A DNA stretch of 64,000 nt from contig NZ_CP078093.1 of assembly GCF_019203185.1 (NCBI RefSeq), forward strand, positions 2,453,058-2,517,057, read 5' to 3'. Made by a program: the position numbers and the translations under genes. Under the pieces are notes generated by a model. The model made no database searches. It was not told the DNA's origin and saw only the letters and a list, made by a program, of their open reading frames with translations. Source of the stretch: Crassaminicella indica. Lineage in GTDB: Bacteria > Bacillota > Clostridia > Peptostreptococcales > Thermotaleaceae. Shown in pieces: positions 22,321 to 30,149 of the stretch (positions within the stretch are counted from its first letter, which is position 1; every line of letters starts with the position of its first letter).

Positions 22321-23253
22321 ATGGAAAATCTTATCTTAGGCATTGATACAAGTAATTATACTACTTCTATTGCTATAGTAAATGAACAAGCTAATTTGAT
22401 ATTAGATCATAGGAAAATACTTGTTGTTAAAGAGGGTAAGAGAGGATTAAGACAATCTGATGCCCTCTTTCAACATATCAACAATATACCTATTTTATTT
22501 GAAAAAATTTCAGGATTAGGATCTTATATAAAAGCTGTAGCTGTTAGTAATAGACCAAGACCTATAGAAGGGTCATATATGCCAGTTTTTAAAGTAGCTC
22601 AATCCATTGGAAGAACAATAGCAAATACTCTAAACTGTTCATATAAAGAATTTAGTCATCAGGAGGGGCATATTGAAGCTGCTAAGTGGTCAATAAATCA
22701 AAAACTTGAACATGAATTTATTGCTGTGCATATTTCAGGAGGCACTACCGAAATTTTGCATGTTAAAAACAATGGTAAATTAGGCTATAATATAAATATT
22801 TTAGGAGGAACATCAGATATTAGTGCTGGACAATTCATTGATCGCATTGGTGTAAAATTAGGTTATCCGTTCCCAGCTGGTAAGAAAATGGATGCACTTG
22901 CTCTAAAAGCTTTAAGCGATGAAATAAAACTATCAGCATCTATAAAGGATACTCATATTAGTTTCTCAGGACCTGAAACTGCTGTATATAAATTAATAGA
23001 AAAAAATACGAATCAAGAATTGTTGGCAAAGGCTGTATTTGAATGCATATCATATTCTTTAAAAGAAGCTATTTTGAATGCACTTAAAATTACAGGTTTA
23101 AAACAAATATTAATGATTGGTGGAGTAGCATCTAGTTCATACATTAGAAATTATCTAACATTAAATATACAAAAGGAATATGAAATTTATTTTGGAGATA
23201 GTAAATATTGTACAGATAATGCTGTTGGAACAGCTCTGTTGGCAATAAAATAA
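22321..23253 (+). CDS. Kae1-like domain protein (TsaD paralogue)
   Basis: A 310-residue ASKHA-fold protein related to TsaD, the enzyme for N6-threonylcarbamoyl-adenosine in tRNA. It has LGIDTSNYTTSIAI (phosphate-1), HQEGHIEAA with the two metal-binding His, ISGGTTEIL and GGVASSSYIR. It is shorter than true TsaD and lies between nusB and folD, the site of a second, uncharacterised Kae1-like gene in many Clostridia. I therefore do not call it tsaD; its target is unknown. Confidence 0.82.
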   Translation: MENLILGIDTSNYTTSIAIVNEQANLILDHRKILVVKEGKRGLRQSDALFQHINNIPILFEKISGLGSYIKAVAVSNRPRPIEGSYMPVFKVAQSIGRTIANTLNCSYKEFSHQEGHIEAAKWSINQKLEHEFIAVHISGGTTEILHVKNNGKLGYNINILGGTSDISAGQFIDRIGVKLGYPFPAGKKMDALALKALSDEIKLSASIKDTHISFSGPETAVYKLIEKNTNQELLAKAVFECISYSLKEAILNALKITGLKQILMIGGVASSSYIRNYLTLNIQKEYEIYFGDSKYCTDNAVGTALLAIK

Positions 23254-25598: not shown

Positions 25599-26489
25599 AT
25601 GGACTTAAAATTGGAATTACAAAAAAAAGCTGACTTAATAGAAGATAGTTTGGAAAAATATTTACCGAAGGAAAATAGTCCTCAAAAACATATTTTTGAT
25701 GCTATGAGATATAGTATTTTTGCAGGTGGAAAAAGACTAAGACCTATTCTTATGCTCGCAGCTTGTGATTTTGTAGGAGGAAATATAGATGATGTACTTC
25801 CATTTGCATGTGCTATAGAAATGATTCACACCTATTCACTAATTCACGATGATTTACCAGCTATGGATAATGATGACTACAGAAGAGGCAAACCTACAAA
25901 TCATAAAGTGTATGGGGAAGGAATTGCTATTCTTGCAGGGGATGCTCTTCTTAATTATGCATTTGAATTAATGATTAGAGCAATTTCAAAAAATCATAAA
26001 AATCTTGAAAGAAAAGTATTAGCCATGAAAGAAATTGCTGAAGCTTCAGGAATTTATGGTATGATTGCCGGACAAGTTGTAGATTTATTGAGTGAAAATA
26101 AAAAAATTGATGGAACAAAACTAGATTTTATTCATAATCATAAAACAGCAGCACTCATTATTGCACCTATTAGAGCTGGTGCTATACTTAGTGGAGCTAG
26201 CAAAGAAGAATTAGAAGCTTTAACAGTCTTTGCTAAAAATATCGGTCTTGGATTTCAAATTAGAGATGATATTTTAGATATTATTGGAGATGAAAAAAAA
26301 CTTGGAAAAAAAGTCGGCAGTGATACTGAAAATCAAAAATCAACATATCCTTCTGTATACGGTCTTGATGCATCAAAGAAAAAAGTAGATGAACTTTTCA
26401 ATAAAAGTGTGAAAGCAATTGAGCATTTTGGCAGTAGATCAGAATTTTTTATTCAATTATCCAATTATCTTGTAAAAAGGGAATATTAG
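25599..26489 (+). CDS. ispA: polyprenyl (farnesyl/geranyl) diphosphate synthase
   Basis: A 296-residue trans-prenyl synthase that condenses IPP with allylic diphosphates. The first Asp-rich motif is DDLPAMD (84-90), the bacterial FPP-synthase form with four residues inserted; the second is DDILDIIGD near 225. GGKRLRPIL binds IPP. ATG 25599 follows AAGGAGG. With dxs downstream and ispH elsewhere in the window, it belongs to the MEP/isoprenoid pathway. Confidence 0.95.
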   Translation: MDLKLELQKKADLIEDSLEKYLPKENSPQKHIFDAMRYSIFAGGKRLRPILMLAACDFVGGNIDDVLPFACAIEMIHTYSLIHDDLPAMDNDDYRRGKPTNHKVYGEGIAILAGDALLNYAFELMIRAISKNHKNLERKVLAMKEIAEASGIYGMIAGQVVDLLSENKKIDGTKLDFIHNHKTAALIIAPIRAGAILSGASKEELEALTVFAKNIGLGFQIRDDILDIIGDEKKLGKKVGSDTENQKSTYPSVYGLDASKKKVDELFNKSVKAIEHFGSRSEFFIQLSNYLVKREY

Positions 26490-26506: not shown

Positions 26507-26950
26507 TTGCTCTTTTTTCAAAAAATTTCTAGAAACGAAGTATTATATGCAACGCTATTATCATGGTTTATCGCACAAACATTAAAAGTCATCATAACGC
26601 TTATAAAAGAAAAGAGAGTTAACCTATATAGATTTGTTGGTTCTGGTGGAATGCCCAGTTCTCATTCATCATTAGTTATGAGCTTATCCACTGCAATTGG
26701 TCTTAAGCACGGTTGGGACTCTACCTTTTACGCTCTCTCCCTTGCTTTTGCATTAATTGTTATGTATGATGCTTCAGGAGTACGAAGAGCAGTTGGAAAA
26801 CAAGCCATTATATTAAATAAAATAATAGAAGATCGACAAAAACATAAACCCATAGGAGAAAAAAGACTTAAAGAATTAATTGGACATACACCAGTTGAAG
26901 TTCTTGTAGGAGCAATCTTGGGTATTTTCATTGCAAACATAGTAATTTGA
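26507..26950 (+). CDS. divergent PAP2 family membrane protein
   Basis: A 147-residue membrane protein of the divergent PAP2 (YuiD-like) family. SGGMPSSHSSLVMSLSTAIGL and VMYDASGVRRAVGKQA are the phosphatase-like motifs, and HTPVEVLVGAILGI ends the protein. A lipid or prenyl-phosphate phosphatase role is plausible from the family and from neighbouring ispA, but not shown. TTG 26507 follows GAGGAGGA. Its stop codon lies inside the OLE promoter's -35 element. Confidence 0.88.
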   Translation: MLFFQKISRNEVLYATLLSWFIAQTLKVIITLIKEKRVNLYRFVGSGGMPSSHSSLVMSLSTAIGLKHGWDSTFYALSLAFALIVMYDASGVRRAVGKQAIILNKIIEDRQKHKPIGEKRLKELIGHTPVEVLVGAILGIFIANIVI

Positions 26951-26975
26951 TATTCAAATTTTTCTATGATATAAT
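26947..26975 (+). promoter_or_regulatory. sigma-A-type promoter of OLE RNA
   Basis: TTGATA at 26947-26952, a spacer of exactly 17 bases and TATAAT at 26970-26975. Transcription would start near 26982, a few bases before the conserved 5' pairing strand of the RNA. The -35 box contains the stop codon of the PAP2 gene. Confidence 0.78.
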
Positions 26976-26981
26976 ATTGTT

Positions 26982-27580
26982 TACTTTATGAGTGGCGCAG
27001 TATTCTAGTCAGATCTACCATTTCTGAAGGCGGGCCTAAAAATCCGTCAAAGGGCACATCGATGAAGTTCCTTGCATTGGCTGCTGACGCCCAGTCGGGG
27101 GTCAGTGTTGGGAGTAAGAAGCAGGGGGCGATCCACAATGGCATGTGGGCGATGACCCTCTCTTCGTGGAGACTTAAAAAAGAAAATTTTTTCTTTTTTA
27201 AGATAAACCTGCAATGTAATCTACAATATTACATGATTACATGCAGAGTAGCCTGCCTTGAGTGGAATAAGGTGGATAATAGATACAATGATGAAGTTAT
27301 TGGGCCCAATGATTTCATCTTATTGCTGTTCGAAACCTATTCTGCAAAAGAGGCTAAGAAATGGTGTGACTGTTGAGGAAAACTCCTAGACTGTTCTTTT
27401 GAGGTCTGTTGAGGATTACAGTACGGACTAAGTGGCAATCTAGTCTTACTTTTGGCAACAAAGTAAAAAGAAATTTAAAGGGAAACCGCTGATTTGGCGA
27501 CAAACCAGTATTTCTTTGGGAAATCCAACTAGACCTAAGCCGTAAAATTTACTCAACAGGCTGCCACTCTTTTAAATAAT
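26982..27580 (+). ncRNA. ole: OLE RNA (ornate, large, extremophilic RNA)
   Basis: A gene-free, structured and noticeably GC-richer stretch of about 580-600 bases. GAGTGGC at 26990-26996 pairs with GCCACTC at 27563-27569, closing the molecule. The location between ispA (plus a PAP2 gene) and a small multispanning protein followed by dxs, tlyA, argR and recN is the known OLE locus of Bacillus halodurans and relatives. OLE is a membrane-associated RNP bound by OapA (and OapB/OapC) and linked to cold, alcohol and Mg stress responses in that organism. Several hairpins are evident: an AT-rich 14-bp stem at 27173-27202, one around 27211-27246, and a GATGAA...TTCATC stem enclosing ATTGGGCCCAAT near 27290-27319. 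The 3' end is uncertain; a covariance search would fix it. Confidence 0.88.
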
Positions 27581-27623
27581 TTATTAGGTTAATACAACTT
27601 TAAATATTTTATAGGTGATCATG

Positions 27624-28244
27624 ATGGAAACAGAATCTAACGAAACATATACTCCTAAAAAGAAAAAAACAAAAAGGAAATTTAAAGGTTATAACCTAAA
27701 ATGGGTTGTCCTTATAACTATATGGACATTTTTTTTAGCCACAGGAATAAGCTTTGTTTCTGAATCAGTACTTAGAAAGGTTCACTTTCTTATCGCTTTT
27801 TTTATTCTTGTTACCATTATATTTATTGGTATATTATTTGATTTAGTAGGAATAGCTGTCGCATCTGCAAGAGAAACACCTTTTCATTCTATGGCAGCTA
27901 ATAGAATAAAAGGAGCTAAATTTGCTGTAAAATTAGTACGAAATGCAGGTCCAGTAGCAAATTTTTGTAATGATGTAATTGGAGATATCTGTGGAATTGT
28001 TAGTGGTGCAGCAGCTGCAATGATTATTTTGCAGTTTAGTAAAGCAAACAACATACATACTCCTTTTCTTAGTATCGCTTTAAGTGGATTTGTTGCTTCT
28101 ATTACAGTAGGAGGAAAAGCTTTAGGAAAAGAAATCGCATTAAAAAAATCAAAAGAAATTGTATTTTATGTTGGTAAAATTCTATACTATATTCATAACA
28201 AAATTGGTATAGATTTTTTTTCTGATAAGAAGAAAAAATATTAG
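27624..28244 (+). CDS. oapA: OLE-associated protein A (OapA)
   Basis: About 206 residues: a Lys-rich N-terminal arm (TPKKKKTKRKFKGYN) suited to RNA contact, two strongly hydrophobic helices (VVLITIWTFFLATGISFVS; FLIAFFILVTIIFIGILF), then VASARETPFHSMAANRIKGAK and further hydrophobic segments (SGAAAAMIIL; ALSGFVASITVGGKA). OapA is the membrane protein that anchors OLE RNA and is encoded right after it, as here. ATG 27624 follows AGGTGAT; ATG 27621 and GTG 27615 are alternatives. The C-terminus is again Lys-rich. Confidence 0.9.
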   Translation: METESNETYTPKKKKTKRKFKGYNLKWVVLITIWTFFLATGISFVSESVLRKVHFLIAFFILVTIIFIGILFDLVGIAVASARETPFHSMAANRIKGAKFAVKLVRNAGPVANFCNDVIGDICGIVSGAAAAMIILQFSKANNIHTPFLSIALSGFVASITVGGKALGKEIALKKSKEIVFYVGKILYYIHNKIGIDFFSDKKKKY

Positions 28245-28262: not shown

Positions 28263-30149
28263 ATGAAATCGGTGAGAGATTTACTATCAAAAATAAAATC
28301 TCCTAAAGATTTAAAAACAGCAACTGATGAAGAATTAAAATGTTTAGCAGATGACATACGTAAGTTTTTAATTGAAAGTGTTTCAAAAACAGGAGGTCAT
28401 TTAGCTTCAAATTTAGGAGTTGTTGAACTAAGTTTAGCTATACATAGTGTTTTTGACAGTCCTCAAGATCGTATTATATGGGATGTAGGACATCAAGCAT
28501 ATGTACACAAAATAGTAACAGGAAGAAAAGATCTTTTTCATACATTAAGAAAATATGGGGGATTAAGTGGTTTTCCAAAAAGAATTGAAAGCAAACATGA
28601 TTGCTTTGAAACAGGACACAGCAGTACCTCTATCTCAGCTGGTCTTGGTATAGCAAAAGCAAGAGATTTAAATGGAGAGAATTATTCGGTCATCTCTATT
28701 ATCGGTGATGGTGCCCTTACTGGAGGAATGGCCTTTGAAGCATTAAACCATGCAGGACATACAAATACAGATATTATTGTTATATTAAATGATAATGAAA
28801 TGAGTATATCTCAAAACGTTGGGGGTCTTTCTAAATATTTAAATCGTCTAAGAACAGATCCAAAATATTTCAAAGTTAAAAATGATGTTGAATACCTCCT
28901 TAATAAAATTCCTGCAGTTGGAAAAGCTGTATATAAAACAGCTGGAAAAGCTAAAGATAGCTTGAAATATTTTTTTGTGCCAGGAGTTATATTCGAAGAA
29001 CTTGGATTTACATATTTAGGTCCTGTCAATGGACATGATATAAAAGAATTAAAGGTAGTTCTAAAGAGAGCAAAAAATATAAAAGGACCTGTATTTATTC
29101 ATGTAATCACAAAAAAAGGGAAAGGCTATACATATGCTGAAAAAAATCCAGATAAATTTCATGGCATAGGACCGTTTTCTATTGACAATGGAAAAGTCAT
29201 AAAAAAAGAAAATACACGTCCTAGCTATTCAGCAGTATTTGGAAATACATTGGTATCTTTAGCAAAGACAAATCCTAATATTGTAGCTATTACTGCAGCA
29301 ATGCCTTCAGGAACAGGATTAAATGAATTTGCAGCTACATATCCAAATCGCTTCTTTGATGTAGGCATTGCAGAACAGCATGCTGTAACTTTTGCTGCTG
29401 GGCTTGCTTCAAATGGATTGAAACCAATATTTGCTGTATATTCAACATTTTTGCAAAGAGCATATGATCAAGTTGTCCATGATGTATGCCTTCAAAACCT
29501 ACCTGTGGTATTTTGTATAGATCGTAGTGGATTAGTAGGGAATGACGGTGAAACACATCACGGAGTATTTGATATTTCTTTTTTAATGCATATTCCCAAT
29601 ATGACAATATTAGCACCTAAAGATGGCCCTGAGCTAGTTCAGATGTTAAAGTATGCATTACAATTTGAAGGACCTTTGGCTATTCGTTATCCTCGAGGAG
29701 AATCTGAAGATTTTACATCTATTAGCAATGATTATACAATTGAAGATATGAAAGCAGAAATCCTTATAAGTGGAAAAGATGTATGTATTGTTGCTCTTGG
29801 AAAAATGGTAAAAACAGCTATTGAAGTAGCCAAAAGATTAAAAAAGCAAAATATTAATTGTACAGTGATCAATGCACGATTTGCAAAGCCTCTAGATGAT
29901 AAAACAATTATTTCAGAATGCTTAAAAGTTAAAAATATTGTTACACTAGAAGATAATGTAATAAAGGGTGGTTTTGGAAATCAAGTTTTAACATTACTTC
30001 ATAAAAATAAGCTGTATGATAAAAATATAAAAATATTAGGACTTCCTGATCAATTTATCGAGCATGGAAATACTGAAGAGCTTATGAAAGCATACCATCT
30101 TGATGTAGATGGTGTCATTAAACATATAAAAAAAATGATGAATCAATAG
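28263..30149 (+). CDS. dxs: 1-deoxy-D-xylulose-5-phosphate synthase
   Basis: A 628-residue thiamine-diphosphate enzyme that joins pyruvate and glyceraldehyde 3-phosphate, the first step of the MEP isoprenoid pathway. The TPP motif is GDGALTGGMAFEALNHAG (about 150), the catalytic Glu lies in VGIAEQHAVTFAAGLA, and RSGLVGNDGETHHGVFD and PRG follow in the second domain. It is full length. The start ATG 28263 follows AGAAAGAGAG. Location after oapA is conserved in OLE-bearing genomes. Confidence 0.97.
   Translation: MKSVRDLLSKIKSPKDLKTATDEELKCLADDIRKFLIESVSKTGGHLASNLGVVELSLAIHSVFDSPQDRIIWDVGHQAYVHKIVTGRKDLFHTLRKYGGLSGFPKRIESKHDCFETGHSSTSISAGLGIAKARDLNGENYSVISIIGDGALTGGMAFEALNHAGHTNTDIIVILNDNEMSISQNVGGLSKYLNRLRTDPKYFKVKNDVEYLLNKIPAVGKAVYKTAGKAKDSLKYFFVPGVIFEELGFTYLGPVNGHDIKELKVVLKRAKNIKGPVFIHVITKKGKGYTYAEKNPDKFHGIGPFSIDNGKVIKKENTRPSYSAVFGNTLVSLAKTNPNIVAITAAMPSGTGLNEFAATYPNRFFDVGIAEQHAVTFAAGLASNGLKPIFAVYSTFLQRAYDQVVHDVCLQNLPVVFCIDRSGLVGNDGETHHGVFDISFLMHIPNMTILAPKDGPELVQMLKYALQFEGPLAIRYPRGESEDFTSISNDYTIEDMKAEILISGKDVCIVALGKMVKTAIEVAKRLKKQNINCTVINARFAKPLDDKTIISECLKVKNIVTLEDNVIKGGFGNQVLTLLHKNKLYDKNIKILGLPDQFIEHGNTEELMKAYHLDVDGVIKHIKKMMNQ

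Follow-up and report, generated by a model that had tools for sequence, protein, structure and literature searches.

In the genome of Crassaminicella indica, a region without a conserved open reading frame follows a DUF212 gene, whose stop is at 26950, and precedes a gene for a membrane protein; the question arose of what this region encodes. It lies in a stretch of 64,000 nucleotides that was analysed as a whole (the window); OLE with its elements, the promoter-like site, oapA, the DUF212 gene, ispA and dxs, as described below, are on the + strand. A sequence-only reading of this DNA had described the region as gene-free and structured and had assigned it to OLE, which is among the largest structured bacterial RNAs and whose biochemical role is unsettled. 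Indeed, cmscan identified 26976-27583 as OLE RNA (RF01071) with 553.6 bits and an E-value of 1.3e-159, the match running over positions 1-616 of the 616 in the model; the curated Rfam cut-off for OLE is 50 bits, and no other Rfam family was found above cut-off in the 64,000 nt. The result named beforehand as speaking against OLE, a lack of covariance matches in 26980-27600, was thus not obtained. The RNA itself likely extends from about 26982 to 27570. A search of the whole genome, a single contig of 2.756 Mb, revealed one OLE RNA. By score it ranked third in a survey of the order (393 genomes, 81 with a match, 80 above cut-off) and fifth in a survey of the class (391 genomes, 151 with a match); the description as a divergent example, therefore, did not hold. 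No OLE match was found in 14 well-known control genomes in the same searches. With P7, P8, P9 and the P13 loop all present (helices are numbered by our own count), the RNA is of the full-length type, which excludes variants 1 and 2 as described in the accessible part of PMC11332333. A 104-aa open reading frame inside OLE (27062-27376) was considered as a gene and rejected as not conserved, since the four close relatives examined have a stop in this frame after 20-48 aa. In sum, this is a canonical OLE, a new example of a known system, and we put the probability that the locus consists of a full-length OLE RNA gene of the ordinary kind together with oapA, the gene of its partner, at about 97%.

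Folding of 26982-27570 gave -203.5 kcal/mol (z -6.9), and none of 100 shuffles was as low. Projection of the Rfam consensus structure onto the window gave 154 pairs in which neither base is missing, and 147 of these were canonical. Covariation was analysed in an alignment (A2) of 30 OLE sequences, picked from 89 distinct full-length ones and made up of the window OLE, 19 further loci from whole genomes and 10 named loci. Standard pairs occupied 90.2% of the cells, whereas shuffling gave 79.2% and sliding of the 3' partners 45.3% or less, and 113 of 170 pairs changed on both sides; such counts favour a structure drawn from one of the sequences and come from relatives that are not independent. 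Pairing was weakest in the long P9 stem, with 65.5% of the cells, and in P7, with 79.0%, where an alignment made from sequence alone can be trusted least. Neither P1 nor P3 is paired in the Rfam model and, therefore, they provide a test of the structure that is separate from that model; P1 was taken from the sequence-only reading, P3 was chosen by eye from the window. Together they were paired in 94.0% of the cells (80.8% in shuffles, at most 53.8% when slid), and 14 of their 16 pairs changed on both sides. P1 joins the ends of the RNA, GAGTGGC (26990-26996) with GCCACTC (27563-27569), just as had been read from the letters, and six of its seven pairs changed on both sides. P3 joins ACCATTTCT (27017-27025) with AGAAATGGT (27357-27365), with eight of nine pairs changing on both sides. 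Both helices also appear in the minimum-energy fold of the window OLE, and both were equated by position with the published P1 and P3. A published model puts P3 across the membrane (PMC12265935, accessible in part); for the window, a membrane crossing of P3 would be an extension of this published proposal. The OLE secondary structure, P1 and P3 included, is backed by covariation.

These data also speak to the idea that OLE is a decayed copy, kept by its position alone. The hairpin after P6 (P7 by our count, 27173-27202) would fit such decay, being almost all A/T and lacking some Rfam consensus positions, but it still folds, the score of the RNA is among the highest OLE scores found, the projected pairs are nearly all canonical and the promoter-like site in front of the RNA is intact. 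The chance that decay is the right reading is, in our view, close to nil.

Several elements with roles in published OLE particles can be recognized in the window. The A-rich loop L4 (AAAAA, 27038-27042) is invariant in all 30 sequences, as is the J4a/5 k-turn strand CGATGAAG (27060-27067), a putative OapC site. The J6/7 strand CGTGGAGA (27165-27172) is mostly invariant in A2; in a cryo-EM model this strand forms a k-turn (PMC12286853, seen in part), and it may do so here. The apical hairpin of P9 (27290-27319) carries the palindromic loop GGGCCC (27302-27307), a predicted kissing loop of the dimer, and the P13 hairpin with its GGCAAC loop (27446-27466) is the predicted OapB-binding region, a role taken from published work. 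L4 and the palindromic P9 loop are the dimer contacts in published cryo-EM models (PMC12286853, for L4 also PMC12265935; both accessible in part), and both are present in the window as sequence elements. To survey the P9 loop, 73 of the 89 distinct RNAs could be cut and folded, the other 16 being without anchors. A GGCC-type palindrome was found in 66 of the 73 and GAGCTC or GGATCC in three; two had a short ATAT alone (L020, L147) and two had no palindrome (L017, L122), of which L017 carries GGGCCC but folded otherwise. A switch from GGCC to GAUC or AGCU in this loop is already described in the accessible part of PMC12286853; the survey agrees with it and adds nothing beyond. A regular-expression search for the P13 loop in 91 OLE RNAs found it in 60, left 24 unresolved and flagged seven as being without. 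By our own reading, four of the seven are clear losses (L087, L089 and two additional OLE RNAs of the relative G015, see below), L104 and L128 have a variant loop, and L157 was badly cut. L087 and L089, both from Anaeromonas, have a shortened P13 without the OapB loop, yet both genomes encode OapB, and absence of OapB was therefore rejected as the cause of the loss.

Directly downstream of OLE, oapA (27624-28244) encodes a multispanning, CNNM-like membrane protein of 206 aa, an assignment based on homology, synteny and fold; the start codon at 27624 was chosen by us, and 27621 is also ATG. The gene pair had been noticed in the sequence-only reading; nhmmer found OLE upstream of OapA in 79 of 80 named loci (the best 80 of 570), a few of the matches being partial, and the gap from OLE to the OapA match was -11 to 471 bases with a median of 66. 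The OapA homologue at L149:5977 onwards had no OLE upstream by nhmmer and no Rfam match at cut-off either; possibly, this upstream region is a reduced OLE variant. Among 59 relatives, OLE was found in 36 and OapA in 38, including all of these 36. In the other two (G032 and G044) the contig with ispA is not the one with oapA and, therefore, OLE may sit in an assembly gap. Loss of OLE in a draft of the same genus (G003) was considered and rejected; its best ispA matches were 38% and 32% identical, and the block probably lies in a gap.

The predicted structure of OapA (mean pLDDT 79.4) was nearest to the membrane domains of CNNM/CorC Mg2+ transporters (7m1t, 7m1u, 7cff and 7cfg) with Z-scores of 11.6-13.4 over 124-128 residues, and the next, unrelated row of the fold search had a Z of 9.0. 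By this prediction the window protein has a CNNM-like fold, and it is homologous to OapA of other OLE species (alignment A1); the relation of OapA to CNNM is already published in the accessible part of PMC11332333 and is repeated here for the window protein. Near the top of the named relatives by OapA were Anaerosolibacter, Anaerophilus and Geosporobacter with 64-68% identity; from such relatives the host may be taken as a putative anaerobe, as had been proposed before. At E 0.001, OapA had no match among the models of Pfam and NCBIfam, and a sequence search of the PDB gave a single weak and unrelated match (E 0.021). Viral contigs were also searched with OapA of the window; 16 stretches fitted the pattern, and none was confirmed.

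The gene order around OLE was largely as read from the letters. Profile searches confirmed nusB, folD, xseA, xseB and an ispA-type prenyl diphosphate synthase (25602-26489) on the one side and dxs (28263-30149), tlyA, argR and recN on the other, followed by spoIVB and spo0A. The sequence-only reading had set ispA next to OLE; here, a gene of DUF212, the divergent PAP2 family, stands between them (26507-26950; PF02681, E 2.6e-52). This gene was found in 20 of 59 named loci having ispA upstream. Within 400 bases 3' of oapA, 62 of the 80 named loci had dxs and 12 had tlyA. The presence of spoIVB and spo0A likely reflects a spore-former, in agreement with the sporulating host proposed before. Upstream of folD, 22321-23253 encodes a TsaD-like protein that scored under the NCBIfam TsaD cut-offs, and a similar protein was seen in 21 of the 80 named OLE/OapA loci.

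Homologues of OapB and OapC, a search for which had been suggested by the sequence-only reading, were found in the genome. OapB (95 aa) matched 7k9b, "OLE-associated protein B", at 3e-16 in phmmer, and its gene lies, by our own reading, between map and infA. OapC (81 aa, between rpoC and rpsL by the same kind of reading) belongs to the L7Ae family (PF01248) with YbxF structures 4lck and 3v7e as best matches (E about 1e-14); RNA binding of this protein is a prediction. The single-contig genome further has one gene for bS21 and one CNNM protein of the MpfA type (445 aa). For comparison, partners were counted in 57 relatives, 36 with OLE and 21 without, G032 and G044 being left out. Two L7Ae-family genes, a stand-in for OapC plus YlxQ, were present in 32 of 36 genomes with OLE and in 4 of 21 without, and CNNM proteins above cut-off averaged 0.86 and 1.62, respectively (2 of 20,000 permutations); many of these genomes are drafts and all are related, so the numbers are not independent. 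OapB was found in 34 of the 36 genomes with OLE, being missing from 2; since 17 of the 21 relatives without OLE also have it, the presence of its gene says little. The L7Ae, OapB and CNNM counts agree with published trends. Two genomes (G005 and G043) have OLE and OapA, and no OapB was found in them.

A promoter-like sequence, TTGATA-17-TATAAT with an extended -10 TG (26947-26975), matches 11 of 12 consensus positions, from which we infer a start of OLE transcription at about 26982. Sites with at least 10 of 12 matches were found in 56 of 77 upstream regions (those of 96 that had an exact anchor and enough sequence) compared with 54 when the window was cut into 3197 overlapping segments of sixty bases. 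Without five duplicate records the count was 51 of 72, and leaving out also two G015 copies it was, by our subtraction, 49 of 70; 13 of the 77 regions had a best site of at most eight matches. Between 26400 and 28300, promoter-like sites were not unusually many (11 compared with 7.6, sd 2.8, in shuffles), and that at 26947-26975 was the best of them; novelty is not claimed for it. No terminator-like site was found between OLE and oapA, and therefore transcription likely reads through from OLE into oapA; a point against the overall picture is one terminator-like match on the + strand, which falls on the P9 hairpin inside OLE.

This arrangement, directly before oapA and with no terminator-like site between, is also what would be expected of a long structured 5' leader that controls oapA like a riboswitch and forms no free-standing RNA. 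We consider such a leader very improbable: the match is to full-length OLE with its 5' and 3' ends pairing together, OLE is described as a highly abundant transcript in the accessible parts of published work, and two OLE RNAs without an adjoining oapA, each with a promoter-like site, occur in G015, a relative from the family of the window's genome that is assembled in 60 contigs with 4% contamination. A free-standing OLE RNA is, therefore, the reading we retain.

In all, three OLE RNAs were found in G015. One is canonical with the full gene cluster, and the two orphans are on contig C6 (L062:6591-7180) and contig C22 (L063:6576-7125). One orphan lies between a DUF218 gene, which we take to be YdcF-like, and a GntR-aminotransferase gene, presumably MocR-like; the other lies near a contig end, followed by 359 bases and flanked by a rhomboid gene at the opposite side. 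Neither stretch contained an OapA match, and in the whole genome one OapA was found; OapB is encoded. In a tree of 91 OLE RNAs the two orphans were grouped together with a support of 1.0, and their grouping with the canonical copy had 0.97. Pairwise identities were 79.1% (canonical to C6), 70.9% (canonical to C22) and 78.8% (C6 to C22). The P13 loop for OapB is gone from both orphans and most of the P9 arm from one of them, and their promoter-like sites scored 12 and 11 of 12, compared with a best of 7 for the canonical copy. Contig stretch L063 also has two Clostridiales-2 sRNAs (RF02937; 2683-2766 and 7200-7284), one of which starts 75 bases past the end of the orphan OLE. A tentative, rather doubtful explanation is that OLE RNAs duplicate away from oapA and that the orphans are trans-acting variants, forming mixed dimers with the main particle or competing with it. 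As natural variants they would make it possible to tell OapB binding and P9 dimerisation apart from the remainder of OLE. No mention of OLE paralogues was found in the literature searched, which covered few subscription papers. Of the 226 different genomes in which OLE was matched (81 + 151 - 6 shared), four had more than one match, namely G015, G059, G043 and G759, in surveys that scored two candidates a genome; the location of single copies was checked in a minority of the 226. G059 was rejected as a second genome with two OLE RNAs, since each copy has a canonical locus on a contig of its own in an assembly of 450 contigs and the strains are probably mixed, and the pair in G043 was rejected as well because it looks like pieces of one OLE. 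G759 had three matches, of which one was listed, and that one is partial.

A mechanism drawn by analogy with published relatives appears, as a whole, moderately probable for the window. OLE would be transcribed from the promoter-like site (start at about 26982) with read-through into oapA, would dimerise via the L4 loop and the palindromic P9 loop, and would bind OapA, the CNNM-like membrane protein, by means of P3, either next to the membrane or across it, with OapC held at the k-turn and OapB at P13; the particle would control divalent-metal handling and stress responses. Of this, the sequences show the RNA, its covarying fold and oapA, and also that OapB, OapC and bS21 are encoded by this genome. 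By itself the locus changes nothing on OLE; it is a clean comparison point, with the genes for OapA, OapB, OapC and bS21 as well as sporulation genes on a single contig.

Compared with known systems, OapA of the window matches, in its predicted fold, the membrane domain of the MpfA/CorC-type CNNM Mg2+ transporters; with 206 aa it has no room for the CBS and CorC domains of the MpfA family described in the accessible part of PMC11332333. The A-rich L4 and the palindromic P9 of the Clostridium acetobutylicum OLE dimer, solved by cryo-EM (PMC12286853, accessible in part), also occur, as sequence elements, in the window OLE, and GGGCCC is an ordinary form of the published GGCC type. Unlike the system of Halalkalibacterium (Bacillus) halodurans, the window has a DUF212 gene before OLE, which was found in 0 of 20 Bacillus-type loci picked by name, and its genome has a CNNM (MpfA-type) gene, whereas mpfA is absent in H. 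halodurans according to the part of PMC11332333 available; synteny was compared with other species. Shared with the H. halodurans OLE, as far as the accessible parts of PMC9723947, PMC12054373, PMC12265935 and PMC11332333 describe it, are the full-length RNA, its k-turn and P13 sequence elements, the adjoining OapA and the genes for OapB, OapC and bS21.
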